From assembly GCA_009746045.1 (NCBI GenBank), contig RPFO01000015.1, forward strand, positions 1,954,998 to 2,018,997: a DNA stretch of 64,000 bases, given 5' to 3'. The position numbers and the translations under genes were made by a program. Below the pieces are notes generated by a model. The model did no database searches. It worked only from the letters and a program-made list of their open reading frames with translations, and was not told the DNA's origin. The stretch is from Mesostigma viride. Taxonomy: Eukaryota > Streptophyta > Mesostigmatophyceae > Mesostigmatales > Mesostigmataceae. Below are positions 7,884 through 32,163 of the stretch, in pieces (position 1 is the stretch's first letter; every line of letters begins with the position of its first letter).

Positions 7884-7951
7884 GGGAGGTCCCACGCGGA
7901 ATGGGGTCATTTTTGGCGCATTTTGCAAGAAAAAAACGCTAGTTTCAATCG
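7884..7951 (+). repeat. Left terminal inverted repeat of the giant element
   Basis: About 68 bp match the reverse complement of 32098-32163 with a small indel (the left copy has extra bases at ATTTTTGGCGC). Shared blocks are GGTCCCACGCGGAATGGGGT, TTTTGCAAGAAAAAAACGCT and TTTCAATCGTCCG. The downstream AT-rich sequence to about 8040 has no clear gene. Confidence 0.85.
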
Positions 7952-8177
7952 TCCGATATCTTTTTTTCGCGCGAATTTGGCGTCCGATCGCGTATTTTCG
8001 AGCTAATTTGGTGTCATAATGCTTAATTCATGTCAATTTGAGCGTACATTCCACATCGAGAGGCTTGAAAGTTAGTAATTCATGTAAATTTTACGTGGAG
8101 AGACTCGACATCATCCTAACCTTTGTATTAACCATAGGACGAGCATTGCCAGCGCATGTCCAAGTGCTAACTTTCCC

Positions 8178-8774
8178 TCACACTTTCGAGGGCCTCTTCC
8201 GTAATTTCGCTTCCGCGATCTGCTGTTCCGTTTTCGAGTTCCTCCTCTTCTTATCGATCTCCTTTGCAGGCGCCCAGACTTCCACATCCTTCCAGCTCTT
8301 GCCATCCGTCAGCTTTACCACCTTCATCGCGTAGTCCAGCGGCATCCACCACAACTTGTTCTTCAACTTCCCTCCCTTCTCCCCCTCAGCGAAAAACTTA
8401 AATGCGACGTCCCTCCACTTGGTGTCGTATCCAGACACCTGCCCATAAAGCATGACGTCTTCTAGCTTGGCATACATTGGCGTAGCCGTATCCTTGTTCC
8501 CTGCTTGCATAATGGCTGCAGTCCACCCATCACACCAAAAGGCCTCTGGTGCTCCGAACCCCATTTCCCCGTCCATAAGTCTCATTTCCAACGTGGGCTT
8601 GTCATCATCCTCATCGCCCGCCTGACTGTCTTCGGCCCCCTTAGGCTCCTCCCGTCCGGAAGTGTCAGCATGTACAGCCGCTGGTCCGAAGCCCACCGCC
8701 ACATTAGCCAAGCGAAGTAACTGCTCCACATCCTCATTACCTGCGTGCAAACCGATCATGCCATCAACGCATGA
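8178..8774 (-). CDS. Leftward gene exon 9 and stop
   Basis: It starts after a 57-base intron whose 3' end has TACTAAC 8 bases before TTTTAG. It encodes SCVDGMIGLHAGNEDVEQL through KLRKRPSKV and a TGA at 8178-8180 (199 codons including stop). Contains WRDVAFKFFAEGEKGGKL and a basic C terminus. No known domain. Confidence 0.65.
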   Translation of the reverse strand, partial: SCVDGMIGLHAGNEDVEQLLRLANVAVGFGPAAVHADTSGREEPKGAEDSQAGDEDDDKPTLEMRLMDGEMGFGAPEAFWCDGWTAAIMQAGNKDTATPMYAKLEDVMLYGQVSGYDTKWRDVAFKFFAEGEKGGKLKNKLWWMPLDYAMKVVKLTDGKSWKDVEVWAPAKEIDKKRRNSKTEQQIAEAKLRKRPSKV

Positions 8775-11700
8775 CTAAAATCGAGTTAGTAGAAATCGGA
8801 CTGCCAACCGTAAAAAATCAAAACACTCTACATACCAGAATTCACTCGCAGATTTTTTCTTACCCTTTTTGGCCTTTTCCTTCGACCTCTGCTCGCAGGT
8901 AGACCCCGTCTGGTGGTGGGGGGCAGGCGCCGGGGCGGGTTTGGCGGGCTCGGCAACCTTGGCAGTCTTCGCGGTCTTGGGTAACTTCTTGGAAGCAACG
9001 CGCTCCTTTCCCCCGTCCTCCTCCTCTCCGCCGCCATCCTCCTCCTCCTTCTCCTCCTCATCGTCCGAATCTGAAAGCACAACTGCTTTTCGACGTCGTT
9101 TCTGAGGCAGGGCAGGCTTGGGAGGCTTCCCCACCTTGGCCGATTTCTTGGAAGCAACGTGCTCCGCAGCCTTCCCACCCTTGGCGGATTTCTTGGTAGC
9201 AACGGGCTGCTCCTCCTCCTCCTCCTCCTCCTCCTCCTCCCCCTCCTCCTCCTCAGCATCGTCGTCCTCCTCCTCCTCCTCCTCCTCCTCAGCATCGTCG
9301 TCCGAATCAGCCACTGCCACAACTGGCTTACGAAGCTGCTTCTTCGGTACCTGAGAAATGGCCAGAGTCGGCGGGGGAACCCGAAGCTGCTTCTTCGGTA
9401 CCTGAGAACTGGGAAGAGGCGCCGGGGTGGGCAGAGTCGCCGGGGGAACCCGAAGCTGCTTCTTCGGAACCTGAAAAACGGGCTGCGACGCGGCAGGCTT
9501 GGAAGGCCCACCTCCATCATCCTCAACAAGTGACACGACTGCCCGTCGAGTCACTTGAGAAGCGGGCTTCTTCGCCGCAGGCGGATCCGAATCACCTTCA
9601 GGCCCCGTCATCTGTTCGGCCTGCTGCGTTCTGACCTCGACGGGGGTCTCTCCGCGGTTAGACCCTCCTGCCGGACCTCCATCCCCTCCATCCCCTCCCT
9701 CCAACAACTGTTGGTCATCCCTCTCCACCACGGCGGACAATCCCCCAGCTTCGTGGGAAGCTTTTCGCTTCTTCGCCCTTCCGAGCCTAGGCCCCCCATC
9801 ACCTTCCCCCTGTTCAAGCCGCTCCCACAATTCACTCCCTTTCCCGATCCTTTCCACTATCTCTTGAAACCCCTTAATCTCCGTCTCGGTACCAAACACG
9901 ATCACCATCGGTTCGAACCTGGAGAAAAAGTCGTGGGCGCAAGCCTTCAGCACATGATCGTACATCCCGCCCGGTTGGGGAATGTCCGAAGCTTTCGGGC
10001 AAGGACCGAACGCCCACCACCCTCTCTGAAAGTTACTCCACTTATCACCCCAAATGTTCGCCAAGTTCAGCAGGCTCAGGCACGGAAGGGACCTGCCCAA
10101 GGGAAAGGGGCGGGCTGAAGCTGAGGCAACCTCGCCTGCCACCTGCTTGACGAGCGACTTGTCATCATCATCACCGTCTAGGGCCTGACAGCAAAACCAG
10201 ACCCGGCGACGGCCCCAGTCCACACTCTGCCACTCATACTTCACGTCCCACTCCTCCTCCTCCTTCTTCGCCTCCGTCTCCTTCCCCTTCCCCTTCCCCT
10301 TCGATCCCTTCTCCAGCCCCTTCGGCCGGGCCCACTTCAAATGTTCCGAAAAGTGTGACACTTTTGGTCGTTTTTTTGACTTTTTCGACGATCGTCACTC
10401 TGCAGAGTGATTCGTCGTGCGAAATCGTGCGAAATTGTGCGAAATTTGCTGAAATCGTGTGAAATTTGCTGAAATCGTGCGAATTTGTGCGAAATTTGCT
10501 GAAATTGTGCGAAATTTCATGTGAAAAATGTCGACGGTAAAAAATTTTGATGTGCACAACGTGTGTGAATTCATGCGAAATTTTGTCAAACGTCACTCCC
10601 CAAAACGACCCTTGGTTGAAATCCATGCGAAATTGTGCGAAATCATGCAAAATTGTGCGAAATCGTGCGAAATCGTGCGAAAATGTGTGAAAATTTTGCG
10701 AAAATCACGCGAAAATCACGCGAACTCGTGCGAAATTTTATTTTTTTTTTGCAAAAAACGACCAAAAGTGTCACACGCTTGGCTTGGACGGCGGAACATT
10801 TGAAGTGGGCCCGGCCCTTCACCGGCCCCTTCATCGCCGCCTCCTTCACCCCCCCTTCGAGTAATCCAACTTGTGGAGCGTACTTCCTGAACGCTTCCGG
10901 AGCAAAAAGTGCCAAACCCACCGTCTTGTCCTCGCTCTCTTTTAGCAGAATCTCCTGAAAGTCGATCTTGCCATTACTGATATCCTTTCTCGGAATCCTC
11001 AGATGTGCGGCGTGTTTTTTGGCTTTAAGAAGGTAGGCGATGTTCCTCGTTATGATGACGGCCACATCCCAAAATTCCCGGTATCTGGCCACAATCTCCT
11101 TCCTGCCGACCGGCCGAGCGAGAGGATGGAGATTGAAGACGAGTTCGAAAATATGAGACGCCACAAACTCCTTGCCATTTGCGTCCTTGCATCGCGCTTC
11201 CAGCGTCACATCCTCCTTGAATCTGGCGCAAATGGTCAGCCGCAGGCACTCCAGCACATCCTTGGCGATCTCCACCAACTTGGTGAGCTTTTCCGGTCCA
11301 ACCTGGCAGCTCATGATGCAATCGATCACGGCGTCCATCATAGGAAGGCTGGCCAAGTTCCTGAAAGAAGTCCAAGAGACCTTCTGGCCTTTCTTCTCCC
11401 CCTCTGCATTGGCGAATTTGCACCTTTGCATCATCACCTCCTCAGGCGCGGGTTTCGTTGAGGCAGGATCATCAGTCTGCTCCTGTGTCAGACGGAGAAA
11501 CGTGTTGGCCAGCGTGCGACTGTAAGCGGAATGCACTGAAGCAATGCTGTGGGCCGGCTTTTTCTTTCCTTCTGCTTCCTCCTCGTGTACATCCACCGCT
11601 GCCGGCTCCACATTCCCTTCCCTTCCCCCCGCTTGCCGCATAGCCGGGAGGATGTACGTGAGCAGATTGGTGTAGCGGCCATCCGCAATATAGTGGCCCT

Positions 11701-14700
11701 TCCCACGCGTGACTTTGCCGTATAGATATAGCTTGTTGTAGTTCCACACGTCAAGCAACGCCTGGCCCAGCGCACGATCCGCCACGGCTAAGTCCTCCGA
11801 ATTCGCCCCCTTGGCGATGTCGAACAGCTTCTCCAGCTTGCCGGTCAGCACCGCCTGCGACATCAATTAACATCGAGCGAGCAACGACAAAACTCAGTCA
11901 TAAAAGGCCAGGGGTATAGCTGCGGATAGACCCTAACAAAATTCGAAAAAGAAACGGCCGACAATACGCAACGAAAACTCCAACAAAAAAAAGGAGAGGG
12001 TCTAGCTGCAGCGAGACCCTCGCAAAAAACTTGAAGCGCACACAAAAAACAACCACGACAAATTCCGAGGGTCTACCCGCAGCTAGACCCTGCCAAAATA
12101 GATAGCTTACATCTTCTTTTGCCTTAGGTAGATTTCGCAGCTCACTCCACGACGGGAGCAGGTCGCCACCCTTGAGAAGAATCGGATTTCTCTGAAAATA
12201 GTTTATTTAACAGCATGCGGGAAAGAAAGGGCCGCCACAACCTTGTGGCTGTACATGCAGAAAGGCTTGTTAGACGAATGGGGACGGCTTGTTGTTTACC
12301 GGGGAATCCTACTGGCAACTAGCTTTGCCTTTTGTAAGTCAGGCGCCGTTTGTTTGAACGGCCGGCCATGTGTTGAATGCTGACGGAAGTTGCGTCAAAA
12401 AGCTGTAATAAAATCTGATGTAACCAGCACTCACCAATTGATTGGTGTGCTGCTTGGTTGGGTAGTGTGTTCAGGGTTGCATTCGAAGAGTACACATGGC
12501 CTGACAGCTCAGACGTGTGACAGATGAGCTGGCTGGCTGAATTATTAAATTGTCAGCGTTACGATATTTCTGGTTTTGCCGTTTTCCATTTTGACGGTAG
12601 GCTTGATAAGCATGGTCGGCGGGTTGTGACCCGTAATTGTTTCTTTGAATGTGCTCACTGAAGCAGTATGCGCGGCCTCGCTGCTATGGCGGCGGGGCTA
12701 AAGAAAATTAGGCAAAGACCCCGTCCTTGCCTGCTATGAAGTCGCGGGCTTTGCGACTTCACGGCAGGTAGGGGCGGTTTGAACGGAACGGAAATTTCGC
12801 GTTACCAATGTGCCAAGTGGTTCTGGTTGGCACCTTGCTGGGCAGCGTCTCGGTGGTCATAGAAAGTGGGCTGGGCGCCCCGCCCCGGCTGCTGGTAATT
12901 CCAGCAGCGGAGCCAATCATGTCGACTAAGAAGTCCGCAGCTGATGCGGAAACTGTGCGAAGGTCAATAGATTAATTTGGATTCCATGAGACTGCGCTGG
13001 TAGTCAGTCAGCGGCCCACCGCCTAGGGCGCTGCATGGCGCTGCCTTCGGCTTGGTGCGCGGCCCTTTTTTGTTATGGGCCAGCGAGGGATATAAGGGTG
13101 ACGCGCGGCCGGCTAATTTCTTGCGTTCCGGAAGAAAATATATTTGCAAAATTCCCACAAAAGGAACCGAGTATCGGAAAGGCGTCTCGGCTGGCAGTGG
13201 CAGTGCCTGGCCTTGTCGTCTCTCCCTGCTCAGCACCCGGCAGGTAGCGGTTCAAACCCTGGTGGCGTCAGAATGCGAATTTTCTGGGTTTTTATCCGGA
13301 ATAATATTTTGCTGAGGCGGCTCCGCGGATTCGCTAACCTTTTATTGTCGGGCCCCTTAGGGGGTTATTATAGCCTTGTGCGGGCTGAGTCGCCATGAAG
13401 GAGATGTTGCGACACGCCCCACTTTGTGGTCTTTTATGGAAGCGGCTACCCTCGAGGCTGCTCGGAAGAGGGGGGGGGTCTTCTCCTTTTCTTTGTTCAC
13501 TGTTATTGGGGCAACAGTGATCCTATCAAGTTTTGTTTCCTGAGCGGCGACAGTGCGGGGGAGGAGGGTAATGGCGCCAGGGACTGGGGTGGATCGGGGG
13601 GCTCTTGCTCCTGCATGCGAGGGAGACGAGATGGCTACTTAAACCTGCCTTTGGCAGGGGCTCTACTCATTGTTTTCAATCAAATGCTGGTTTTCTTGGG
13701 AGCTCAAGTGTCATAATCGGATTTCTCTGAAAATAGTTTATTAAACAGCATGCGGGAAAGAAAGGGCCGCCACAACCTTGTGGCTGTACATGCAGAAAGG
13801 CTTGTTAGACGAATGGGGACGGCTTGTTGTTTACCGGGGAATCCTACTGGCAACTAGCTTTGCCTTTTGTAAGTCAGGCGCCGTTTGTTTGAACGGCCGG
13901 CCATGTGTTGAATGCTGACGGAAGTTGCGTCAAAAAGCTGTAATAAAATCTGATGTAACCAGCACTCACCAATTGATTGGTGTGCTGCTTGGTTGGGTAG
14001 TGTGTTCAGGGTTGCATTCGAAGAGTACACATGGCCTGACAGCTCAGACGTGTGACAGATGAGCTGGCTGGCTGAATTATTAAATTGTCAGCGTTACGAT
14101 ATTTCTGGTTTTGCCGTTTTCCATTTTGACGGTAGGCTTGATAAGCATGGTCGGCGGGTTGTGACCCGTAATTGTTTCTTCCCACCCATCCCACCCTTGG
14201 GGGGCTCTTGCTCCTGCATGCGAGGGAGACGAGATGGCTACTTAAACCTGCCTTTGGCAGGGGCTCTACTCATTGTTTTCAATCAAATGCTGGTTTTCTT
14301 GGGAGCTCAAGTGTCATAATGACGTTCGTACCCATGTAACCACCACGGAATTTCCGCAACAGGTCCTGGAATGCTTGCTCCGCCTCCTTAGGAGTATTTG
14401 CGAAATTGGACTCCGCCCCACCCTCGCACATCATTGCCCGAACCTCTCCCCACCCGCCATCCGGCCCCCTGAGAAACGACTTTAACCCCTTAAAGTAGTG
14501 GTTCCCATCCACCACCGCGTACCGGAGAACCAGATACGGTACCGGTACCCGTTCCTCAAAAAATTTCGGATCGTAGGACTTCATCGCAGTATTGCACAGC
14601 AGGTTGAACACAACCCGACTGCCCTCGATCTCCTGAGGCAAAACTGCGGCCACCTCGTCCACCCTGGCGTAGGTACGCCACTCAAGTCCTCTCGCGAGGA

Positions 14701-17700
14701 AAGAGGTGGTGGACTCCGTGTTAAGCCACACGTCGACTTCAGTATCCGAAAGGGGCCGGAAGTACCTGGACCCCACATCCTCCGCGTCAATCTTGGCGCC
14801 GTGGTAATGCTTCAGCCACTTGACGAAATCCGGCATGCACAAGATTTGCTTGTCGAACAGGTCAGGTTGAGATTCGGCAAGCGCCTGGAAAGGGAACTGC
14901 CAGACCGGGACAACAACCTTGAAGTGCAAGGCGTTGTCCCGCGCATTGAGGAGAATGCGGCCGTTCTCCTTAATGGTTTCAAGGTTTAAACGCCGCTGCC
15001 TCAAAGCTTCTGGCAAAATAAGCGCGTTGACCGTCTGGATCCGCATACTGAAACATCCGGTCTGCTGAAAATCGGCCGGCCGAATCCAACGCGTTTCCCT
15101 GAGAGAATTGGCCTTCCGGATGTTCTGGTCCCTGACCTCCTTGTTCGAGTCGACCTTTTTCGAAGGCTTCCAGCTTTCAATGATAGGGTCGGTGTCCGGG
15201 TTCCCACTGCTCGTGAGCACCCCCTCCTTAAAAAGCTTGTTGAGTGACCGGAGCAGCTCAAGAAAGGGGGAGAACTCGGGCCAGTTTGGCAGGTCATCGA
15301 CGTCCGCCATCCGCCTACTCGAGCAGTACTTGAGCATATCCTTCACCAGCGCGAACACGGCGTCATGACCAGGTAACTTCTTCTCCACCGTGGCGTCTTC
15401 GTCCCCCCCGTCATCCTGAAGTAAAAAATCGAAAAGGACCGCAGGATTTGCTCAAGTCAGTAATATTTAGGCCGACCACGACATCCTGTTCAGCCGGGAC
15501 GAACAAAGTTCTGTTGGAATAATACCTTACTGACACTCAACACCAAGTCCCGCAGCCAGTCAGCGTCTACCCGCAGCGAGAGGTCTAAATTTTCACAACA
15601 ATCGTACCTGTCCAGTTTTCTGCTGCTTCTTGGCCTCCTTAGCCTTCTCCTTCTCCGCCTTCTTCGCCTCCTTCTCCGCCGCCTTCGCCTCCGCGTTCTT
15701 CTTACTGTTGGCCTTTGCCACCGCATTCAGCGCCCTTTTTCCCTCAGCGGCCCGACGACGAAAATCAGCCTTCATGAATTTCTCGATCTTCTCAACCTTT
15801 GCCTCTGAGTACTCCTTAGGCTGCCACTTGAAATTCTTGGTGGCTTTCGACCTCACCAGATTTACAAATTCATATGCCAATTCACTATTAACTCGTCGTC
15901 TGTCCCTGGTCCTCTACGGAGGACTGAGTTGAACTCAGTCCTCTCTAGAGGACCGAGTTTTTGGGTTTCGTAGAAAATTCGCCCCGGTCAGAATGTTTGA
16001 CAAAAAAATTCTCTCAAAATTTATTCAAATACTACGTGAAAAGATCTTTCTTGGACATATTTTTGGGATTTTTTTGGATTTGGTATGCGCGGCTAACTGT
16101 ACGGTCAAAGTACAGGTGGTAAGGGTACTTTTCCACGTGAAACGCGAGTTCCGGAAATGCACGACCTAGCCATGGCGGCTCGCGCCCATGCATGCAGTTT
16201 ACGTTTGCGGACGAGTTAGCCGTCCAAACTCAGTAAATAGATTTAAAATGCCCTAAAGATGATATAAATCAATTTTTAGCTCGCGGGGATGCGATTTACC
16301 CAGTGTCGGCACTGTTCTTGCTGGAAAAAACTGCGATAAGGCAGGTCGACGGAATTGATTACTGCGCTTGCTTTCCGGCGCAATTTCAATGGCTGATAGG
16401 TTTCTTTCTACATGTTAACATGAGTTGCATTAGAATATATTGAGTGACAGTATAGATTTGATGATCTCGACCATTCTGTCACGTCATGGTCTATGTGCCG
16501 CAAAGTGCCACTTTTGCGGGCACCGCCTGGGCCAAGGTAACGCCAGCCGTGCCAGGTAAAGCCGGATAATCGTTGCCTCTTCGTTCCTTGATGTTCGTAC
16601 ATGAGTTTAAGCTTGCGAGGCGTTGTCAGGTTCAAGTCTTGATGCTCTTTCTTGACCGTTGCCTGCCCCTCTCTAAAACCCCCTTTTCAGATGATGTTAG
16701 CAGGCATTTGCCTTAACCCAGTGTAGTTGTGCAGGGTTTTAGGAGCTGTGCAGGTTTAAACACCTTCATAGATGTTAGTTATTCTTTTGCTACGTTCATA
16801 CTGCATGATTGTGTGGCCACGGGCTGCGTCAAGGGTGCATTCAAGCTTTTACGGGTGAGTGAAAAGTCTTGGTGACAAACCACTGCCATCATGTGCCAGC
16901 AACTATGTTGGCCACATCATGGCAAGGCAAAACAGTTATAGCCATATCTATTGTTGTTTGAAACAATGGAAATATGCTTAACCTACCCATTATATTGGTG
17001 GTTGACACTTATAACATAACCCTTTGTTGGTAGGTATCCAAGCCCATTCCCTACATGCATGCATAGGCTCTCACTACATGATAAGGTATGATATACCTGA
17101 AGTATGATGATGCAAGTGTGTTGTCCTGTAATGCTTGAAGGGAAATGAGTTGATTGGGATGGTTGGTGGCCACGGTGATGTAGTATGACCGCACTTACAT
17201 GCTAGCAAAGTTAGCAAAAGCCCCATTCCTCTCCTGAGGACTGAGAGTTTTTTAATTGTTTCAGGCAGTTGCAGTGGCCAAATGGAGCCCAGTTTTTTGC
17301 CACGCTTCAAGAACTATGTTGTTTACATGCCTATATTTTTTCTTCATGCACCAGGATTTGATTAAATTTTTCCCACTCGTTCTTATCCCGAAAAATGCAA
17401 ATTCGCGAGGGGCGCCCAACGTCCGTGTAATTTTCAGGTGTTCGGGTCAAGTTTTCACATATGCAGTATTTTTGCCAACAAAATGATATCTAGTACACCC
17501 CAGATCCACATCAAAACATTTGGGATGGACCCCCCACCTAGTCGCTACACGCGGTTGAAAATTGTCAACTCAGTCCTCCTGTGAGGACTGAGTTGGGACA
17601 GACGACGAGTTAAGGGTAGCGACACCCAACACCTCCGTATCGAAATCGGCATCGACTTCCGCCTCAAGTCGTGTCAGGTACTTGCGAAACTCGGACCCCG

Positions 17701-20700
17701 CAGGTCCCTCCGAATCGACGCCATCGGGCGGAGACTTAAGCATGATCAGGCCAACAGCAATAATATGATCCTTCGCAACCTTCTTGCGGGAATCCAGCTT
17801 TTCCCTTTCATGCTCAGTCAATGGAGGCTTCGCCGCCTTCCCCCCCGCAGTACCCCCAGCGACAGCCCCCGCCTGCATGACAAAAAAAAACGAACAAGAA
17901 GGGACTTCACCTCAGTTCGATTGTTGCACCATCGTCTCTCTGCGGAGATACCCCTCAGCACGAAAAAAATCACACGAACTCGCGGCGGATGAACGTACCT
18001 GCACAGCCACTTCTCCCTCAGCGTCTCCCCCATCCTCATCTCCTCCAGCGTTTTCATCCCCCCCATCCTCATCTCCTCCAGCGTTTTCTTCCTCTCCGGC
18101 AGCGCCTGCTGAGGCCAAACCCCCCGCCTGTCAACACCGAATACGACAGCTCATTGGAAATCAAAATTAGTCGACATTTGTATATTTCGCATAATGCGCT
18201 CACTAAAACTTCAGGCGAAATGCAGACATCCGGATATCGTTTAATGCTTACCATTTCCATCTCGAGTCCAGACCAAAGACCAGCACTGTCAACAGCCATC
18301 GCCGCAGCCGCCCCCTGAAAAAAGAAAACAGATTGGTTGGGGGCACCGTTGAAATTAGCCGAACATGTCAGTCTCAATAAAAGGGTGAGGGTCTACCTGC
18401 AGCTAGACCCCATGTAAGATGCTCGTGGAAACCCGACGGACAAGCACCCACCTTATCAACCAAGTCTGACAAATTAGGTAAATCCTCCGATACGTCCCCT
18501 GGCATGGAGCCCCCCTGCATGATATGACAGGACAAACCATGAAGGTTGGTCAGCATATAGAGCCCTATTCAGGGAATGGAAACAACCCAAATCGATAAAC
18601 GATATCGGCAAGTTAACGTACCGAAACGTAGAACTTCCACCTCCTCAAAATCTTCCCCAAAGGCCATATCGGAACTTGATGGGCTCTCTCCTTTTCCAGT
18701 TGCCGCCTCAATTCCGCCTCGAAGAACAACTCGAGGGACTGCCAATGGCCTCCCGCCTCTAAATCAGACCACTCCGTGTCTGTCTTGGTTCGGATACTCT
18801 GGAGACAATCAACCAACGAGATTTGATCCAACCATTCCTGGACGATTTCCCGGTATGGCTTATATGTCTGAATAACATGGAAGTCCTCCCGGTGCCGGAA
18901 ACTTTGGATCACCTGTCCAGCCCAATCCAAAAAGAAAGCGACCGCTTCCCGCGAAAGGCTGGCGTCCGGGCTAACAAGAAAGTCAGTCCGCCACTTAACA
19001 AAAGATTGCAGTAAGTGGTCTCTTGCCATGTCCAAATGCGCGATCACTTCATGTGCGCGCTCCTCCAATCCTCCTACGTCATTCATTCTTCCCGGCACAA
19101 TTACGATAAAGTCACTGTTGGACGTGTCAACAAATCCTTGCCTGACAATATCAAACACTTCATCTTCCGACAGTGAAGCCCTCGAATCCGCTCTCATATC
19201 TCCAGTCATGAGTTTAAAGAGCTGATGCAACGCAGTGGTTTTCAAGGTTTCCATATAGGAAGCCTCGATGCATGTGAAGCCAATGTGGACCTCGAACTTT
19301 TCAACCTCATCAAAGAGCGTCGACCATATTAAAGCACGACGGGGAAAGTAACGTCCGACATCCTCCTTCAGATTAAGGATGCACGACTGCGCGATCTTCA
19401 AAACCTCATACATGTCGTCACCAACGACCCTCTTCCCATGAATGGCTCGCAGTGTGGCTCCGAACAAAGCAAGCTGGCCGCAGCGGTCGTTCTTCCAAAT
19501 TACGTTCTGACTGGAGGACACTCGGTTGGCGACGACACCGGACTTCTCTGCAAACCCTATCTCGGCCGAAAGAAAGCGGATCAAGCCTCTCAAGCCCTTT
19601 TCGGCTTTACGACTCACCCCAGACTCAGACTCAGCCTGAGCCAGGTACTGTTTCAGAATGGCCAGCGTGTCGGGCTGCAGACAACAAGAGTAAAAAAAAG
19701 GCCACACACCGTCGTCGTCAACAACCTTAACTCCTAGGTCAACGTCTCTCCGCAGCTAGACCCTTACGATCAATGTATGACATAAAATCCACCCTTTCTA
19801 CGATACACACACGCCGTTCAAGCCATCTGAAAAATGTACGTCTCACATTAATAAACATACCTGATAATCGACTGAAAATCCTTCGTGAAGAAGGGGTGGG
19901 CTCCCGTTCTCGTCCTTCTCCCCCTCAACTGCCTTCGCAGCCTCCTCCTCCTTCCTCGCAGCCTCCTCCATCTTCCTCGCGGCCTCTTCCGCCTTCATCC
20001 TCTCCTGTCGCATCTGCAAAAAAAGAGCGGCCTCCTCCGCAAGAATGTCCTTCGCTGCCGCCTCCGTCTTCTTCTTCGCCTCCTCCTTCTGCTTCGCCAC
20101 CAGGATCCTGTGCTCCTTCTCCTGGGCAGCCTTTTTCTCCTTGTACTCCCTCTCCTCCTCCTCCCTCTCCGCCTTCTCCAGCCTCTCCTTCTCCTCCCTC
20201 TCCATCCACCCTCTCCCTCTCCGCCTTCTCGATGGCCTCCCTCTCCGCCTTCTCCTTCTCCTTGTCCTTCTTGTCGAGAGCCGCGTATTCGTCAGCAAAG
20301 CTTGCGGCCATTGCTAACAAATCGGACAACCGCTTCTGACGCGACTCCCGAACCGGCGATTCCGGGTCTTCAGGCCTCCCGTTAGTCTGATCGCGCTCGT
20401 CCTCCTCAACAAGCTCACTGATAGACTTCCTCAGCTTCCTGAGCTCTTTGGTGCGGTCGTCTTCCTCTACCCACTCGGCCGCAGGCTTACGCTTAGAACT
20501 GGAATGCTTGGGGGACGGCGAGCGGGACGCAGAAGCGGGGGACTTGGGTGGCGGCGAGCGGGACTTGGGGGAAGGAGAGCGGGACGGCGAGCGGGACGCA
20601 GTTGCGGGGTTCTTGGTTGACGGCGAGGGGGACTTGCGAGAAGGAGAGCGGGACGCGGTAGCGGGGGGAACTTTGGGCGGAGAGGGGGACTTGCGGTTCG

Positions 20701-21054
20701 GCGAACGGGTCGCAGTTGCGGGGGACTTGGGGGACTTGCGGGGCGGCGAGCGGGACGCAGTAGCTCCGGCCGACTTGGGGGGCCGCGATGGAGACTTACG
20801 GGGCGGAGAGCGGGACGGAGCGCGAGACGCAGCAGCGAGAGGGTTGGGGGGTATAATTCTGTCCAACTCGCTGGGGGGCAAGTTGGACTTGGAGGGCGAG
20901 GGGGACTCGGTGGGGGGGACCTCGCAAGAGCATTTACGGGACCGAACTGCAAAGGAGGAAACGCCTCCGTTGCCGTTCGGTCCGGCGAGGTGTTCGACGT
21001 CATCTTGGGTGAAACGGGAGTGGCCTTGACAGAATCGGAATAGGAGGACGACAT
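8178..21054 (-). CDS. Leftward gene of the giant element, 9 exons, unknown function
   Basis: Exons run 21054-19861, 19674-18622, 18514-18452, 18314-18252, 18127-17999, 17872 to 15608 (interrupted), 15415 to 12111 (interrupted), 11854 to 8832 (interrupted) and 8774-8178. Every exon length is a multiple of three once the three insertions are removed with one copy of each target duplication, so all introns are phase 0. The product would be about 2,448 residues. It starts with a Ser/Arg/Pro-rich region and a charged coiled coil; globular unknown regions follow, then an acidic Asp/Glu and Lys-rich region near the C terminus. Donors are GTATGT, GTACGT, GTGGGT, GTAAGC and similar. It faces away from the transposase-like gene. 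I recognise no domain; it may be an accessory transposition protein. The upstream start is unsure because ATG 21054 directly follows an acceptor-like CTGCAG. Confidence 0.65.
8832..11854 (-). CDS. Leftward gene exon 8, split by a 481-bp MITE
   Basis: Coding parts are 11854-10811 and 10325-8832 (348 + 498 codons). The first encodes AVLTGKLEKLFDIAKG through KEAAMKGPVKGR. The second resumes PKGLEKGSKGKGKGK, then a conserved-looking block (FFSRFEPMVIVFGTETEIKG), three SQVPKKQLR-type repeats (VPKKQLR three times), long Asp/Glu runs and Lys-rich segments like a nuclear, nucleic-acid-binding or chaperone-type tail. The donor giving an open frame is GTAGAG at 8831; the stronger-looking GTATGT four bases earlier leads to a stop in the next exon. 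Confidence 0.65.
10330..10810. mobile_element. 481-bp MITE in exon 8 of the leftward gene
   Basis: Ends are inverted repeats starting GCCCACTTCAAATGTTCCG, with a second shared inverted block TGTGACACTTTTGGTCGTTT further in. CCGG flanks both sides (10326-10329, 10811-10814), fitting a 4-bp target duplication. The interior is dominated by short GTGCGAAAT-type repeats. It has no coding capacity. Removing it with one CCGG restores the exon frame. Confidence 0.8.
11855..12110 (-). other. Intron 7 of the leftward gene with three palindromes
   Basis: 256 bases between exons 7 and 8, GTAAGC donor and GTCGCAG acceptor. Palindrome copies at 11911-11933 (degenerate), 11998-12019 and 12069-12090 make up a quarter of it. 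Confidence 0.65.
12111..15415 (-). CDS. Leftward gene exon 7, split by the tandem long+short element
   Basis: Coding parts are 15415-14318 and 12179-12111; together 389 codons. The first part starts DDGGDEDATVEKKLPGHD and runs to GGYMGTNVI. The second continues LLKGGDLLPSWSELRNLPK to a donor GTAAGC. Intervening sequence 12183-14317 is mobile DNA flanked by AAT on both sides. Globular, unassigned; includes DVGSRYFRPLSDTEVDVWL. Confidence 0.7.
12183..13714. mobile_element. Tandem element, locus 1, long copy (1,532 bp)
   Basis: It starts CGGATTTCTCTGAAAATAG and ends GCTCAAGTGTCAT, with AAT before and after. There are no terminal inverted repeats and no long ORF. It contains strong hairpins (GCTGCTGG-TAATT-CCAGCAGC near 12889; GAAGTCGC loop GCGACTTC near 12738), a TATATAAGG-like box near 13090 and a tRNA-type B box (GGTTCAAACCC) near 13250. 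A near-identical copy is at 42186-43721. Class unknown; a structured non-autonomous retroelement is one option. Confidence 0.75.
13718..14317. mobile_element. Tandem element, locus 1, short internally deleted copy (600 bp)
   Basis: The first about 465 bp and last about 120 bp match the long copy; the middle 950 bp is replaced by CCCACCCATCCCACCCTT. AAT occurs at both ends (13715-13717, 14318-14320). The same deletion junction is found at locus 2. It shares locus-specific bases with its neighbouring long copy (for example TTTACCGGGG and GTTACGAT). Confidence 0.75.
15608..17872 (-). CDS. Leftward gene exon 6, split by the TTAA element
   Basis: Coding parts are 17872-17610 and 15887-15608. The first encodes KPPLTEHEREKLDSRKKVA and ends at GVATL. 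The second continues NSELAYEFVNLVRSKA and a Lys/Ala/Glu-rich helix. Joined with a single TTAA they give 181 codons with no stop and phase 0 ends. Reading straight into the insertion gives a premature stop, so the copy is inactive unless the insert is excised. Confidence 0.7.
15892..17609. mobile_element. TTAA-flanked non-autonomous TIR element (1,718 bp)
   Basis: TTAA occurs at 15888-15891 and 17610-17613. Ends are 15-bp perfect inverted repeats CTCGTCGTCTGTCCC, followed by subterminal hairpins built from AACTCAGTCCTC and its complement. TTAA targets are typical of piggyBac and Kolobok types; the tip sequence fits neither closely. The interior is AT-rich with no ORF over about 80 codons. Excision leaving one TTAA restores exon 6. 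Confidence 0.85.
17999..18514 (-). CDS. Leftward gene exons 3-5, three small exons
   Basis: Exon 3 (18514-18452, 21 codons, GGSMPGDVSEDLPNLSDL), exon 4 (18314-18252, 21 codons, AAAAMAVDSAGLWSGLEMEM) and exon 5 (18127-17999, 43 codons, Gly/Glu/Asp repeats of the type ENAGGDEDGGD). Each has an acceptor CAG and a donor GTGGGT, GTAAGC or GTACGT, and each is a multiple of three. A 22-bp palindrome (18389-18410) lies in the intron between exons 3 and 4. Confidence 0.6.
18622..19674 (-). CDS. Leftward gene exon 2
   Basis: This 351-codon exon starts after TGTCTGCAG (PDTLAILKQYLAQAE) and ends at a GTACGT donor after KFYVS. It is mostly helical-looking globular protein with aromatic and charged residues (MYEVLKIAQSCILNL, FIVIVPGRMNDVGG). 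No stops and phase 0 at both ends. No recognised family. Confidence 0.7.
19861..21054 (-). CDS. Leftward gene exon 1: SR-like repeats and coiled coil
   Basis: It begins MSSSYSDSVKATPVS. A long Ser-Pro-Arg-Lys repeat region (units like SRSPSRKSPSP) follows, then AEWVEEDDRTKELRKLRKS, then a Glu/Lys/Ala-rich coiled coil (EEAARKMEEAARKEEEAA) ending DYQ before a CAG|GTATGT donor. The frame changes near 20911-20945, at a run of seven G, and changes back near 20210; the two shifts compensate, so total length stays divisible by three. Either the copy is decaying, these are sequence errors, or a tiny intron is missed. Confidence 0.6.
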
Positions 21055-21131
21055 CTGCAGAACAATATCAAAAAAGCAAGTTTCACAAATGTCATTCAGA
21101 ATCTGAATCGCCGGCAGAAAAACGATGGGGA

Positions 21132-21587
21132 GGGTCTCGCTGCAGCTAGACCCTTTCGTGGATTCTAAAAGGGACATTTAGTTTAATGCAAAACTTTGGC
21201 GTCTCGCTGCAGCGAGACCCTCACTTCAAGCAAAAACAAATCATTTTTAGGGTGAGCGAAAACAAGCAACCTCCCATCATGCAAACATAAAAAAGTATAC
21301 ATTCCTTGGGGTCTCGCTGCAGCGAGACCCTAACGTCAAACAAAAACAAATAATTTTTAGGGTGAGCGAAGAAAGCCCCCTCCCATCTTGCAAACATTAA
21401 AAGTCGACATTCGTAGGGGTCTCGCTGCAGCGAGACCCTAACACCGATACAAAAACAAATCGTGAGAAAAGAAAGACCCCCCCATCATGAAAACATGAAA
21501 AATTGACATTCCTTGGGGTCTCGCTGCAGCGAGACCCTTACGTCAATACAAAAACAAAATTCCGAGGGTCTACCCGCAGCGAGACCC
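21132..21587. repeat. Palindrome-headed tandem repeats, about 108-bp period
   Basis: Successive units at 21199, 21309, 21417 and 21516 each begin with a 22-bp palindrome: GGGTCTCGCTG followed by its exact reverse complement (perfect in the last three), then CAAAAACAAAT and GGTGAGCGAA blocks. Further palindromes sit at 21132-21153 and 21566-21587. This lies just upstream of the leftward gene, on the side of the divergent promoter region. Confidence 0.85.
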
Positions 21588-21596
21588 TTACGACCA

Positions 21597-24090: not shown

Positions 24091-24100
24091 ACAATTTTAG

Positions 24101-24816: not shown

Positions 24817-25129
24817 GTTGCAGCTGGTTACTATTAGCTATGGGGTCTCTCTGCGGCTGCGCTTCTTTTTCGATGGGCGATGGGACGGTCGCAATTCGCA
24901 AACCGGACGCGGCGTCACAGGGCTGAACGGTATTGAAAAAATTGGAAACGTGGCATCCTCGTTCCTCCCCACGGAACTGAAAACTGGAAGCGCGGCGCTG
25001 GTGCAAAAGCTCGATCCCATCTTTTGGAACCAAGCTAGCGGATTGGACGACATCCAATATGCCGTCACCCGTGCTTGTGGCCGCAGGTATAAAAAGAGAC
25101 GACCTCCAGCCCATTTACCTGGGAACATT

Positions 25130-25918: not shown

Positions 25919-28900
25919 ATGATACACTTTCGAACTTTGTCTGTAATTGTCGCTTTTCCCAACGATACTCGATTTGCATGGATTTCGTTGTGCCGGTCGT
26001 CATGGCATGCAGCACGCGAACGGGTGGGAGTTTTCGCCCTTGCGTCCGGTCGTCCAGGATTCAGTGCAATTAAGTTGAACACCGGGACGAAGCAGTCAAC
26101 TGGCGCAAAAAGGGTTTTCGGAGATGAGAACCAGAATCCAGCGCAGCCTGAAGCCAAGGAAGTCAAGCGGCCGGGAGAATACTCGAAATCAAAGAGGGTT
26201 ATTGGGGAATATTTCGCTGACCAGGCGTTTGAAGCGGCTCAGGCGATGACAAAACCCGAGGGGCGGGGGCCGGCTTTCGACCAGATGATTGCTGGCTTTA
26301 ACTCTAGGGCCGCTGAACTAGGTCACGGGAAGTATCATGAGGAGGCGAAAAAGCTTTACAATCAGGAGCGGATGGCAGAACTGAACAGGTTCTGGGTGGC
26401 TCGGATTAACGGCTTTTTTGATGGTCTGACCAAAAGCGACGCAGACAGAGACGTCAGGATGGTGCTGATGTCCACGCTTTACTGTGGTGACGACTTGGAG
26501 AAGGAGTTTTCGGCCGCGGAGTTGGAGAACCTGACGGGGATGGACGCCAAGAAGATTCGCGGAATTCGCGCGATACGAAGGCAGCAGAAGTTGGACTACC
26601 TCAGACACGCGCAGGCTCGCAAGGGGCGCCCTTTGCCGCAATTCGTGATTGACGCGATAGTGGACGCGTGGATGCACGATGATGAGTCGCGCGCCTCCTC
26701 CCAGATGAAGGATGTCAAGCGCACTTACAGCAGGGAGGGTCATGGCAATCGCGGGGTGCTCGTCGCCGTTGAGGGAGCGCGCTATTACATGACCTCCAAG
26801 GAGGACATGTACAATCACTTTCTCGAAAAGCATGCGTACTGGAACAAAAGGAGTGACCAGTATGATAAGGACGTGGGCATTCACGTGGGCTACACGACCT
26901 TCTGCAAATACGCGCCCGATTGCATCAAGGGCAAGTGGAAGGAGAGGAACCTGTGCGCGTGTGAGAAGCACGTCACCATGCAGTCGGCCATGGGGGCGTG
27001 GACCAAGCACTGCAATGCGAACCACGGCAAGAACTGCAAGTGTGGCGCGGAGTGTGCGGGATGCTCCAAGTACAGACAGCCGGACGGTACTTGCGGAATG
27101 TGGAAAGCCATTCACTCGACGGACTGGATCAAGCACTTTCACTGCCCGGTGTCCGCCGAGACTGACGGCAGGGATAACGGGCTGCGTGAAGGGGGCGGAA
27201 TGGGCGGGGGGATGGAAGAGGGGGAGGGGGAAGATGAATGGCGGGGACGGGACCTGGAAGACCTCGACATTTCTGAGAGGCTGGTGGAGGACGAAGATGG
27301 GGTGCCGAGGACGGAGAGGGTTCACCGCATACTGAAGATGGCGTGTGTGGAGGGGTTCTGTCCTGAGGAATCATGCGGCATCCATAATAACTGGGTGCAG
27401 TGTGATCGGGACAAGAATTCCACGGAGATTCTGAATTGGTTCAAGTTCGAGATGGTGGAGCAGACTGTGACCCGAGGGGTGAGGGTGAGTAGGTTTCGAT
27501 TTTATTTCTCCGTTAAATGTTGTTGACTTTTTGTTTTTGTGACCTATAGCTGCAGCGAGACCCTTTGTGAGTTGCAGTTATGATCGAAATGCGATTTTAT
27601 TGCAAATCGAAACTGTCTGCGGACCTTTGCGAAACAGGGCGAGACCGATGGCAGGGCGGCGAAGAAGGTGAAGCGGCCCGAGCAAGTCCAAATGAGGTCC
27701 ACCCCAGCTGAGCTGCGGGACGAGATTCTTAAGAGGTGGGACAAGTTCACCGTGCACTGCTTTACGGCCTGGTCGCAGGCGGATACAATCAAGGATCGGG
27801 AGAAGAATCTGAGAGAGGGGGACGTGCTCGTGCACGGCGACTGGGCCGAGAACTACGAGAACAGCAGCTACGTCCAACTGCAGTCGCAGTACTTCCACAA
27901 GCGCAGCCACATCCTGATGCCCATGATCGTGCGTTATCGGCTCAACGGCGAGCTGGAAAAGCGCGTCTTCTTTTTCCTGGGGGATTCCAGTATCAAGCGG
28001 GGCGAGCGCGCACTCGTATACGCTCTTCGCAAGATTCTGGAAACCCTGCGGGTAGAAGTAGGGGTAGAGGTGCGAAACCTGTACATGTGCTCGGACAACT
28101 GCGCGGTGCAGTTTAAGTCCAGGTACGTGATTAACCAGATTAACGGTCTGCTCATGGGGGATCCCGACCTGCAGGCCTTTGAGTTCCACTACATGGGGGA
28201 GCAGCATGGGAAGGGGGAGGTGGATGGTCAAGGAGCGAAGTGCAAGTGCGTCTTGAGGGAAATGCAGAGGATTCCCGAAAACCAGCACATACTTGAGACC
28301 CACCAGCTAGTCGCCTACTTGAACCAGAACTGGCAGGGCGGCAAGACATCGAGCAGGGAGTCGGCCCGCGCGCGGGCCGAGAACGTCACTCGCCACTTCT
28401 TCCTTTTACCCCCGGTACGGAATTGTGTGTTATTTCAGGTTTTAAGACGTCAACTGCCGCTGTTCTATAAAAATTCAAACCCAATAAAGGTATCTCTGCA
28501 GAGAGACCCTATATACTGTCCATGGGTTGCTTTTCTTTTAGGTATGAAATTTCGCTTGTTCTTTCGGTATGAAGGGGTCTCTCTGCAGCTATACCCTGTG
28601 TCGAATTTCGATCACTTGATATCTTGTCGTACGTTGTTATTATGATTCGAATGGGGTCTCTCTGCAGCTATACCCTGTGTCGAATTTTGATCACTTGATA
28701 TCTTGTCGTACGTTGTTATTATGATTCGAATGGGGTCTCTCTGCAGCTATACCCTGTGTCGAATTTTGATCACTTGATGTCTTGTCGTTAATTTTTTTTT
28801 TAAGGGGTCTCTCTGCAGCTATACCCTGTTTTATTGGTTTTTGGTCAATTTTGCTAATTTGAACGGTATTCTTTTTGTCCTAACTATTTGATGACAGGAC

Positions 28901-29473
28901 GTCGAGTCCGGCCGACGCGCGGAGGTTGAGGAGGTGCCTGGCATCAAGAAGGCGCATTGGTGGCGACTGGACAAGTCCGACCCTGGCCTTTTGATGATTA
29001 GGCGCTATTCCTGCTACTGTCCGCCCTGTTTGGCTGGGCGGTTTGAGGGATGTCTAAGCGAGTGGTCGTTTATCATCGAGTTCAATGATGCAGGAAGCTC
29101 GATGAAAACTGTCCGTTTGCTGCCACCGAGCCAGCCCAACCCTCCGGTTCGCATGGTGACGCGGGGGGAGCAGCTTAAGGACAAGCGGGAGGCGATGGGC
29201 CGGCAGATGAGACTCCACGACTATGTGGCAGTTCCATCGGACAAGGACACGGATCACGATCCCATCCACCCGTTCTGGTTGGCTGAGGTTGTAAGCGAAG
29301 CCGGGCCGATCGTGTTAGACGAGAACTTCGAGAGGTGGGTCGAGGGCCGGAACGGACGGGAGAAGGAGCTGTTCCTCGCCGGGAACGGCATTCTTCCCGT
29401 TCGGATTTGGAAGCGGGATAAGCATGACCCCCTGCATTTCACGCTCAACGTTGAGGATTGGCCACCTGTTTGA
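25919..29473 (+). CDS. Rightward gene: DDE/RNase H-like transposase candidate
   Basis: Exons are 25919-27484 (522 codons), 27638-28414 (259) and 28898 onward, all phase 0. It ends either at TGA 29471-29473 (971 residues) or, using a donor at 29468, in a fourth exon 30286-30453. Residues about 329-404 are Cys/His-rich (CACEKH, CKCGAECAGC), a likely zinc-binding region. Exon 2 holds three spaced motifs: HGDWAENY (Asp590), CSDNCAVQFKSR (Asp675) and HGKGEVDGQG (Glu716/Asp718), the layout of a D-D-E/D RNase H-fold nuclease. Proteins with DxAENY, SD..xQ[YF]K.R and HGKG..DG motifs exist in many eukaryotes as unnamed, transposon-like families; I recall this in general terms and do not assign a superfamily. 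It is the best candidate for mobilising the 24-kb element. Confidence 0.6.
27485..27637 (+). other. Intron 1 of the transposase-like gene
   Basis: 153 bases, GTGAGT donor and GAAACAG acceptor, phase 0. Contains a half-degenerate palindrome near 27547 (AGCTGCAGCGAGACCC). Confidence 0.7.
28415..28897 (+). other. Intron 2 with palindrome-headed 81-bp tandem repeats
   Basis: GTACGG donor and TGATGACAG acceptor, phase 0. Four units near 28573, 28652, 28734 and 28803 each begin GGGGTCTCTCTGCAGCTATA, then GTGTCGAATTT and GATCACTTGAT. A related copy is at 28492. The repeat is the same palindrome family with the right arm mutated to TATACCC. Confidence 0.75.
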
Positions 29474-30274
29474 ATTGGGAGAGGAAACTAATGGGTTTTA
29501 CACAATGCCTTGTGCTTGGCCTTGCTACCCACACACCTTGCAGGTGCTGAAAGAAAGAGAGGTTGAAGACAATTTACGTGGAAGAATAAATGGCTTTATT
29601 AGAATATAATAGTTGGAGAAGAGCTTGAATGGAGGTTGAATGGAGGTACCTGCCCTTAGGGGGCAGTTTCCTTTTATAACTTTTAGGCTAGGAAGGATGA
29701 CATCAGCAATGACATCATCACAGAAGCTTGTAGAAACATCCTAGCATATTCCTAGCATATTCCCAGCATATTCTCAGTATATTCCAGGAATATTCCTGGC
29801 ATATTCTTAGAACATTCCTAGAACATTCTAGACATGATCCAATGAGCTGGCATAATAGCTAGATGCCAAGTGTCTACATAATAATGTGCCACATAACATG
29901 ATTAATAAAGTGACACATCTCTTCTCCTTGGAGTGACAAGTGTCATGCAATGAGTCTACCCACTTGTCATCATGTAAGTGATAACATGTGTCATCATGAG
30001 CTGCCAACACTTGTCAGCTCATGGACCAAACACTTGTCCAATAGGCCATAGCACCACCTGTCAATCAAATACGTGATGCTACTAGGCTGACTCAGGTTAC
30101 AAGTCATCCATGTCCAAGTATAGGACTATGGCACATGAATATTGATCAGCTCATTGAGCCCAATTCATCTAGCTTATCAAAGCTATCAAATTCCCAGTCC
30201 ATATGGAATAAATCCAACAAGAAATAAATCAGGCTGGGATATATTGTGGCCAGGTGGATATAATATCCCTAACA
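29467..30274 (-). mobile_element. Probable solo copia-type LTR
   Basis: On the minus strand it begins TGTTAGGGATATTATATCC and ends CCCAATTCAAACA, the TGTT...AACA form of plant copia LTRs. It is AT-rich with repeated CCTAGCATATT units (about 29740-29830) and ATAAATGGCTTTATTAG near one end. Flanks CCACC and CGTCA do not match, so no target duplication is seen. It lies at the end of exon 3 of the transposase-like gene and may act as intron sequence. Confidence 0.5.
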
Positions 30275-30285
30275 CGTCACGCCAG

Positions 30286-30744: not shown

Positions 30745-30959
30745 ATTTATTGCTCCACCCCCACAAAAAAAATCGTTCCGGAACTGTTCGAAGCGAATAG
30801 CACTGACAGGATTCGAACCCGGGTCCACATTAATGTTCGGAGTGAGGTAGGCCAGCCATCATGTTCCGCACTCAAATCTGGCTCGGGTCCGATCCCTTCC
30901 ATTGCTCTTCGCTTCGAACAGCTCCGGAACAAGTTTTTTGTGGGGTTGGAGCAATAAAT
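30745..30959. mobile_element. 215-bp MITE with about 55-bp inverted repeats
   Basis: Left ATTTATTGCTCCACCCCCAC and right GGAGCAATAAAT are inverted; similarity continues through TTCCGGAACTGTTCGAAGCG. The short centre carries, on the minus strand, a tRNA-type B box (GGGTTCGAATCC). No ORF with meaning. The target duplication cannot be separated from the palindromic ends. Confidence 0.75.
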
Positions 30960-31279
30960 ACTTATTTGCCGGGCGCAGTTGTCATTCCGCCTAGTACAAT
31001 TGCGTCACTAGTACAATTTTTGTCTGGGTACGGTACGAACCAATAACGCAATATTTAGTATCTAATCGCCGCTGCTCTTGCTGAATTTTATCCGGAAGCT
31101 GAAACAGGTGTCCGGTGAAGCGAATACTAGTGACTGGTGGTCGTGCCCTTCCATTACTCCTTATCGACAAATTTTGGGTTCTACCTGCAGTTATAACCCT
31201 TGCGCGTCTGGCTGTCGGGGTCACCAATTTCCTGTCGATTGCAAGCAGCCAACCTTGCCGAAATTTAACACTGTCACAA

Positions 31280-31717
31280 ATGGAGCAGAGCAATATTTTC
31301 GGTTCTCAGCATACCTATGTGATGGTCGACAAAAATGAGCACGCTGCAAACATCAGAATTGATGTAGAGTTGCTCGGACCTTCTGCACAGTGGGGTGCAG
31401 GTGTCATTGCGTTCGGCAATGGCATGATCGATCTGGTGCCACCCGATTCAGATTTGAACCCTGCTTACCAATGCGTGCCTGACAATCAGGCGAGAGTGGT
31501 GGTGGAGAGCACGGAAATTCCGGGCTCTCCCAATGTATCAATGATGCGCCTGAGGGCCGAGGCCCAGCAGGAGTTCCTGGCTGCTGCGGAGAACGGCGGG
31601 GCCAAGTGGAACACCAAAATGTATACAGGCGAGCCTCCCAACTACAGGGGAGACCAGTACCAGGGAGTGTACTCCTTCGGCGATTTTGACATCGACGGAT
31701 GGGGCACCTTTTTCTAG
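31280..31717 (+). CDS. Small ORF in the right part of the giant element
   Basis: 145 codons from ATG 31280 (MEQSNIFGSQHTYVMVDKNE) to TAG. The frame is open upstream to 31115, so it could be a terminal exon. It includes IRIDVELLGPSAQWGAG, NVSMMRLRAEAQQEF and ends DFDIDGWGTFF. No family recognised. It is plus-strand, 0.8 kb beyond the transposase-like gene and within the TIRs, so it is probably a third gene of the element. Confidence 0.45.
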   Translation: MEQSNIFGSQHTYVMVDKNEHAANIRIDVELLGPSAQWGAGVIAFGNGMIDLVPPDSDLNPAYQCVPDNQARVVVESTEIPGSPNVSMMRLRAEAQQEFLAAAENGGAKWNTKMYTGEPPNYRGDQYQGVYSFGDFDIDGWGTFF

Positions 31718-32097
31718 GCGCAATGCCTAAGTTGTCAAATACTCCGACAATGTCAAAATTGCGAATGATAAAATTACGGACATGTGCACATATATGTACT
31801 GATTCAATAAAAAATTTCGGCAATTTTGTTCCCGGCATTGATAATCAAAAGCTGCTAGCAAGCCAAGGACTTCAAAAGTGGCAATAGATCGATGTAGGTC
31901 GTCGATAAACTTGTCTAGTCGTCATATTTGGGTCGCAAAATTCGTGCGTGGCCTGCAGGCATCGGACAAAGTGCACGCAACAGCAGGAGTCGGTTGAGTT
32001 CGAAGCACGGCAGACACAAAATTTCGGCGCAAAGTCCGTCGGGCGAAAAATTCGCTCGGCTGCCAAATTTTCGGCAAGAATTTCGGCGCAATGTCCG
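31718..32097. other. Right subterminal region, no gene
   Basis: AT-rich after the ORF stop, then TTCGGC/GAAAAATTC-rich sequence leading into the right TIR. Two AATAAA-like signals near 31806 could serve the 145-codon ORF. Confidence 0.4.
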
Positions 32098-32163
32098 GTT
32101 TTCGGACGATTGAAATTAGCGTTTTTTTCTTGCAAAAATCTACCCCATTCCGCGTGGGACCAC
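32098..32163 (-). repeat. Right terminal inverted repeat of the giant element
   Basis: Inverted partner of the left end. The inward flank (31960-32097) has repeated TTCGGC-type blocks (TTCGGCGCAA twice) that could be subterminal binding sites; that role is inference. Confidence 0.85.

Follow-up and report, generated by a model that had tools for sequence, protein, structure and literature searches.

The 64,000-nt stretch of DNA analysed here (the window) contains an interval of 24.28 kb (7884-32163) that carries terminal inverted repeats (TIRs) at both ends and interrupts an open reading frame. What kind of entity is it, and do its contents belong together? A sequence-only reading proposed a TIR transposon of 24.3 kb, with multi-exon genes in divergent orientation and repeats of its own, and, from the one copy in the window, this proposal is well supported. 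Our best explanation, which we hold to be likely as a whole, is that a giant eukaryotic cut-and-paste DNA transposon has inserted into a gag-like, protein-like reading frame.

Ends and probable insertion site

The left TIR (7884-7956, plus strand) and the right TIR (32102-32163, minus strand) pair in two blocks. The first, perfect over 20 bp from 7888, is the exact 20-mer GGTCCCACGCGGAATGGGGT, found at 7888-7907 on the plus strand and at 32142-32161 on the minus strand; the second lies beyond an indel and aligns 7921-7956 with 32137-32102 at 97.2% identity over 36 bp. The matching inverted ends reported earlier are thus real. At up to three mismatches, the 20-mer occurs at just these two sites in the window and at none in 100 shuffles, and local alignment of the two ends scores 128, whereas 300 control pairs, resampled so as to keep the dinucleotide steps, reach at most 86. 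The GC content is 0.474 in the first 500 bp of the element and 0.46 in the last 500 bp; outside, it rises to 0.72 over the 500 bp on the right-hand side and, on the left, to 0.594 over 7350-7883.

The triplet CCT, read earlier as flanking the element on both sides, is indeed present at 7881-7883 and 32164-32166, but as a putative target-site duplication it is weak and register-dependent. At this register the tips are unequal (GGGAGGTCCC versus GTGGTCCC), and no flank match longer than 3 bp was found within 4 bp of either tip. Sampled flanks put the chance of a 3-bp match at about 0.02 with the register fixed, and at 0.66 when both tips are allowed up to 4 bp of movement. Because 66% of these flanks match over 3 bp with a free register, the CCT duplication is weak evidence, compatible with chance. 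With this weak duplication and a single copy seen, one might suppose a chance inverted repeat around ordinary host genes, but the TIR match goes far beyond that of shuffled sequences, and the palindromes described below are confined to the interval bar one match with six mismatches; we regard such a coincidence as very improbable.

The interrupted frame lies on the minus strand, with its upstream half at 32164-33468 (435 codons) and its downstream half at 7350-7883 (177 codons and a stop). When the flanks are joined, the frame remains open over the junction, as had been claimed, giving 612 codons with both CCT copies kept and thus 611 with a single CCT. GC is lowest at codon position 2, in the same frame on either side of the element. 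The codon table of the rightward gene does not favour this frame on the left side (-0.23 versus -0.04 in a plus frame), and a plus-strand ORF of 590 codons is likewise open across the right junction.

The rightward gene and the third ORF

The rightward gene (25919-29473, plus strand) is modelled with three exons, the first ending at 27478 and the others spanning 27638-28414 and 28898-29473. Its product has 970 aa counted from the first ATG, with an uncertain start codon and an alternative ATG at 26246. In this model, D588, D673 and E714 give a D-84-D-40-E spacing and are accompanied by SDN..QF and HGKGEVDG motifs. A cysteine/histidine, zinc-binding-like motif (CACEKH and CAGC) lies upstream of the triad, while, past E714, CPPC occurs at 820 and HDPIH at 899. 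Judging from these motifs, the gene, described earlier as transposase-like, probably encodes a DDE transposase. HGKG..DG and CxCxxH motifs are also known from transposase-like proteins of animals.

A single-sequence model of exon 2, of low confidence (mean pLDDT 36), runs from residue 63 as strand, strand, strand, helix, strand, helix, strand, with extra elements flanking this RNase H-like run. D588 falls directly after the first strand and D673 directly after the fourth, and E714 is placed in coil rather than in a helix. Among the best 50 of 407 matches in a fold search with exon 2 there was no transposase; these matches, mostly acetyltransferases and methyltransferases at E values of at least 0.095, were treated as noise. 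Pfam yielded no family for the transposase, either with the whole model (E up to 1) or with three pieces of it (E up to 10), and NCBIfam gave no match at E up to 1; PDB sequences gave none for exon 2 or for an 861-aa model of the transposase at E up to 10, and tblastn of the exon-2 ORF against phages was empty at E up to 0.01. The name DUF7869, a guess, was also tried for the transposase and led to no paper.

It could be argued that the element is a large non-autonomous or hitch-hiking one whose TIRs depend on a different transposase, with the right gene being something else. For instance, passages of PMC12477816 describe several giant Ectocarpus families in which all genes carried lack transposase homology, and the transposase call made here rests on motifs and spacing. 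However, the D..D..E order is right around the predicted strands and the zinc-binding-like motif lies upstream, and we find this alternative rather unlikely.

The small third ORF noticed earlier is there as well (31280-31717, plus strand, ATG at 31280, 145 aa). It is either a separate small gene or the last exon of the right gene, to which the exon-chaining script joins it through a weak donor. It has no match in Pfam, NCBIfam or viral contigs, and its single-sequence structure model has a pLDDT of 44.

The leftward gene and the interior as one unit

On the minus strand, the exon-chaining script models a large accessory gene of about 2,300-2,400 aa, the core of which spans 8178-21139. Its larger exons are 20938-21139, 20210-20491, 19861-20157, 18622-19755, 17633-17872, 15608-15884, 14332-15415, 10775-11854, 8864-10334 and 8178-8740, with small ones besides; two doubtful extra exons (25119-25128 and 24324-24429) were modelled, and one exon model includes a further doubtful exon at 11985-12082. 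A large multi-exon gene had been expected here, but its size differs from the approximately 2,448 codons first given, with two models having 2,383 and 2,399 positions including the stop. The script behind the left exons was trained in part on ORFs of the left gene, while the codon table used to check them was derived from the right gene alone. This table selects the modelled frame as the best of six in all 10 left exons tested out of 19, the other nine all being shorter than 120 nt and exon 10775-11854 being scored from 10893. The left and right genes share codon usage.

As for the identity of the left protein, the pieces searched have no Pfam or NCBIfam match at the curated cut-off and no relative in viral contigs or prokaryote genome contigs, and no ParB or methyltransferase domain was found in them with Pfam. 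The best hits below threshold were all taken as chance: BSP_II at an E of 0.012, where the matched stretch is acidic and of low complexity, VSG_B at 0.09, and three at 0.19 (Bromo_TP, Nrap_D6 and oligo_HPY). A methyltransferase partner like that of Sola1-1_Ec32 was considered and rejected: a [DNS]PP[YFW] scan confined to element ORFs longer than 100 codons returned two SPPF hits, neither in a modelled coding frame.

The private palindrome family and the minisatellites of the sequence-only reading are both present. The 22-bp palindrome GGGTCTCGCTGCAGCGAGACCC, at up to six mismatches, has 26 copies in the window, 25 of which are dispersed within the element between 9644 and 30490, and none was found in 10 resampled sequences; the sole copy outside is a six-mismatch match. 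Most of the copies inside are clear of modelled exons (21 of 25; 19 when the doubtful exon 11985-12082 is included). Many transposases bind subterminal sites; the palindromes here differ in placement, stopping 1.7 kb short of each element end. Their arms show no covariation (154 of 198 pairs, versus a shuffled mean of 154.3), so DNA half-sites fit better than a selected RNA hairpin, and selection for such a hairpin is unsupported. Between the divergent genes lie two arrays of a 30-bp minisatellite, a more diverged one (21594-22625, 84%) and one of 47 copies at 99% (22677-24092), inverted relative to the first. Taken together, the confinement of the palindromes and the shared codon frame preference show that the interior behaves as one unit.

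Size and TIRs would also fit an integrated virus or a Polinton-like element with terminal inverted repeats. Nevertheless, no Polinton/Maverick polymerase B, integrase or capsid gene and no packaging ATPase domain was found in the element proteins searched (Pfam, NCBIfam), the genes are readable only with introns, and viral contigs held no relatives in protein scans that reach close relatives only; this origin seems to us extremely unlikely. Viral contigs scanned with the TIR likewise gave no relatives, scans of prokaryote genome contigs were equally empty, and Rfam (gathering threshold) and tRNA scans of the window returned no hits.

Within a left-gene intron, 12180-14320 is a nested repeat insertion, and its part 12180-14275 shows a 99.1% match to 42183-44282, which lies beyond the element. 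Two further insertions are probable: an AT-rich one with TG..CA ends at 29548-30275, which by eye resembles a solo LTR and shows no clear target-site duplication, and a 200-bp, MITE-like foldback at 30750-30950. Because nested insertions are present, this copy is not newborn; it later received one clear and two probable insertions, all in non-coding parts, and the modelled frames of both genes stayed open.

Relation to known superfamilies

Passages of PMC12477816 describe giant DNA transposons of Ectocarpus (KDZ, EnSpm and Sola-1) that are generally larger than 10 kb and can exceed 30 kb, with KDZ reaching 30.3 kb and EnSpm 15.2 kb; many carry accessory genes, and most have nested insertions. 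For example, Sola1-1_Ec32 has 21.5 kb and a 1,104-aa opposite-strand protein, and the same source refers to a mobile KDZ element of 31.7 kb in Chlamydomonas, as well as to giant EnSpm members with accessory genes in red algae (PMC12477816). Given these published multi-gene giants of Ectocarpus and Chlamydomonas, a size of 24 kb is not unprecedented, and the earlier view that such elements are rare at this size has been overtaken. The present element resembles those of Ectocarpus, as described there, in size range, TIRs, accessory genes (on the opposite strand in Sola1-1_Ec32) and nested unrelated transposable elements, but it differs in having a transposase without a match among Pfam families, left-gene pieces in which the search found no ParB or methyltransferase domain, and a private palindrome family. 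The sequence-only reading recognised no described superfamily; for the transposase, Pfam and NCBIfam give no match, and it may still belong to a described one.

Pfam holds KDZ and Harbinger nuclease models, and an ISAzo13 model is present in the Pfam/NCBIfam libraries. With Pfam, neither the whole transposase model (E up to 1) nor its three pieces (E up to 10) matched a KDZ (Kyakuja/Dileera/Zisupton) transposase domain, which sets the element apart from the likewise giant and algal KDZ of Chlamydomonas, nor was a Harbinger nuclease domain found in the transposase. As to target sites, Zisupton is described with an 8-bp duplication (PMC12730594), whereas the longest tip match here is 3 bp; CCT does not fit the TNA or ANT target given for PIF/Harbinger (PMC12477816), but the duplication itself is insecure. 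Zator, with a 3-bp duplication and similarity to ISAzo13 according to PMC10045372, would agree with a possible 3 bp here, but the transposase has no Pfam or NCBIfam match. Dada, as covered in passages of PMC3706591, likewise has a DDE transposase whose gene contains introns and whose N-terminal part carries a zinc-finger motif; however, D567, D635 and E811 of Dada-U6_DR give gaps of 67 and 175, in contrast to 84 and 40 here if E714 is the last catalytic residue, and Dada inserts into small RNA genes, duplicating 6-7 bp, whereas the target here is a protein-like ORF.

EnSpm/CACTA shares the possible 3-bp duplication and the occurrence of giants with accessory genes. Its tips, within CMCT, are mostly CAC or CA..TG according to passages of PMC12730594, unlike those found here. 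Between its second D and last E it has C(2)C and H(3-4)H; neither lies between D673 and E714 here, a difference that holds if E714 is the last catalytic residue, CPPC and HDPIH being located further downstream. Overall, we lean towards a divergent member of a described superfamily with giants (Sola-1, KDZ, EnSpm or similar) that lies below the reach of Pfam. Giants with accessory genes and nested insertions and with a similar layout are documented (PMC12477816), and EnSpm makes 3-bp duplications (PMC12730594); against this stand the lack of a transposase domain by Pfam, tips of GGG/GTG or GGT rather than CAC, the absence of C(2)C between D673 and E714 and a tip flank match of at most 3 bp. Such an affiliation would mean a new family rather than a new superfamily, refining rather than excluding a giant cut-and-paste transposon.

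For that transposon, we propose that the putative transposase, with D588, D673, E714 and its zinc-binding-like motif, would bind the ends of about 60 bp and excise the element, which would be joined at a short staggered target, probably of 3 bp. The 2,400-aa left protein may be an accessory factor that binds DNA or chromatin, and the scattered 22-bp dyads may be binding sites for it or for the transposase. A tentative and on balance unlikely extension is a new DDE superfamily, in which a D-84-D-40-E transposase has a 2,400-aa partner that reads the dyads. The catalytic core would be flanked by CxCxxH...CxxC upstream and CPPC downstream, and the dyads would act as independent half-sites, not hairpins, that label all 24 kb as a single unit and might also provide 3′ splice sites at the edges of some exons (predicted for 21139, 19755 and 17939).

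In algae and fungi, cut-and-paste transposons of giant size that carry accessory genes have been documented as a class in recent work. An element with clear boundaries, a transposase outside curated profiles and a binding-site-like repeat confined to it would open the question of how such long elements come to be recognised as single units, and it would also allow one to ask what oversized partner proteins do.

Inverted ends and the interrupted reading frame

The two ends of the 24.3-kb candidate element (7884..32163) match in inverted orientation, as the sequence-only reading had claimed. The 20-mer GGTCCCACGCGGAATGGGGT lies at 7888-7907 (+) and 32142-32161 (-), with no other site in the window within 3 mismatches and none in 100 shuffles, and beyond a 9-10-bp indel both ends share a second matching block of 36 bp at 97%. 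Aligned locally end against end, they score 128, the maximum among 300 resampled pairs being 86. GC content falls at the right border from 0.72 in the 500 bp outside to 0.46 in the last 500 bp inside, and at the left border from 0.594 outside (7350-7883) to 0.474 inside.

The CCT reported on both sides is indeed present when the element is bounded at 7884 and 32163, but it is weak evidence of a duplication. The tips at this register, GGGAGGTCCC and GTGGTCCC, are unequal by 2 bp, and the probability of a 3-bp match, sampled from real flank sequence, is 0.022 at a fixed register and 0.66 when each tip is free to shift by 4 bp, so the CCT duplication alone proves little. The proposed in-frame continuity of the interrupted minus-strand gag-like frame (32164..33468 and 7350..7883) held: the joined flanks form a single open frame of 612 codons, to which the right flank contributes 435 and the left flank 177 (611 in all with one CCT copy only), where chance would keep the frame over a junction one time in three. 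GC in this frame is lowest at codon position 2 on both sides. A codon table from the rightward gene discussed below ranks it top of six frames on the right side (0.17); on the left side it is not favoured (-0.23, versus -0.04 for a plus frame), and a plus-strand ORF of 590 codons is also open over the right junction.

Genes carried by the element

The rightward gene, a probable DDE transposase (25919..29473), has three exons with GT-AG introns and a product of 970 aa counted from the first ATG, or 861 from the ATG at 26246. CACEKH and CKCGAECAGC lie in its upstream part, followed by HGDWAENY (D588), CSDNCAVQF (D673) and HGKGEVDG (E714), with gaps of 84 and 40 between the triad residues, and then by CYCPPC. 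In a low-confidence structure predicted for exon 2 (pLDDT 36), the order from residue 63 is strand, strand, strand, helix, strand, helix, strand, flanked on both sides by additional structural elements; D588 falls immediately past the first strand of this run, D673 past the fourth, and E714 in coil.

For the leftward accessory gene (core 8178..21139), we ran our own exon-chaining script with a nested insertion unmasked or masked. Each run gave 19 exons, differing in one small exon, and 2,383 (unmasked) or 2,399 (masked) positions including the stop. The sequence-only reading had put this multi-exon gene at about 2,448 codons. The first two modelled exons, beyond the minisatellite, and the very small ones are doubtful. 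The right-gene-only codon table placed the modelled frame top of six in all 10 of the larger exons tested among the 19, one of these in part. The same table scores the small third ORF (31280..31717, +, 145 aa) best in its own frame (0.17). Using a weak donor, the script favoured splicing this ORF onto the rightward gene; the ORF may be the last exon there or a gene in its own right.

Palindromes, minisatellites and insertions

The element also carries the private palindrome family and the minisatellites noted earlier. The 22-bp palindrome GGGTCTCGCTGCAGCGAGACCC has 26 matches in the window at up to 6 mismatches, 25 of them inside the element, and none in 10 resampled versions of it. Several copies belong to 79- and 99-bp tandem repeats, so not all are independent. 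Against a list of 20 exons (16 left, 4 right) that covers 42% of the element and omits three doubtful left exons, 21 of the 25 copies lie outside exons, 3 at predicted exon 5′ edges and one, with 5 mismatches, within an exon; the omitted exon 11985-12082 contains or touches two further copies. The predicted 3′ splice sites at 21139, 19755 and 17939 of the leftward gene sit within palindromes, as if these supplied acceptors to the modelled gene. Among 18 distinct copies, the arms pair at 154 of 198 positions against a shuffled mean of 154.3 (matched or exceeded by 1,185 of 2,000 shuffles), and pairing no higher than in shuffles favours constant half-sites over a hairpin that is being maintained.

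Between the two large genes, related 30-bp units form a pair of inverted arrays, the right-hand one with 47 copies at 99%. A repeat of about 2.1 kb in an intron of the leftward gene (12180-14320) is 99.1% like a copy outside the element (42183-44282); it is recent and tandem-like and occurs both inside and outside the transposon. An AT-rich solo-LTR-like piece, judged by eye, and a 200-bp foldback at 30750-30950 (predicted energy -125.5 kcal/mol, 240 bases folded) are probable further insertions. The modelled frames of both genes are still open.

Neighbouring repeats and comparison with known transposons

The window opens (1-6664) with about 2,032 near-perfect CTG repeats and then 87 CCCTTG copies. 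Copia-like gag and pol occupy 34904-39954, with a single ORF that has the order integrase (residues 81-142), protease (best E 0.042) and reverse transcriptase (653-852), all four matches falling under Pfam curated cut-offs; the usual copia order places protease first. A perfect 67-bp inverted repeat (33469-33535 / 40651-40717) encloses this region and is adjoined by a perfect 66-bp direct repeat (33536-33601 / 34511-34576). Direct repeats of 595 bp (45756-46350 / 48988-49582), 99.7% identical, are likely the LTRs of a recent 3.8-kb element, and a minus-strand fragment at 61198-62391, in a region with inverted repeats, has an RVT_1 reverse-transcriptase domain above cut-off.

We checked the 24.3-kb element for features (domain, tips, duplication or spacing) of KDZ, EnSpm, Harbinger and Dada; for each of the four, one or more of those checked disagreed. 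Zisupton and Kyakuja are reported from Chlamydomonas and its relatives (PMC8226300). The likeness of the Mesostigma viride element to algal giant transposons concerns layout only; the one copy described here fits a giant cut-and-paste transposon.
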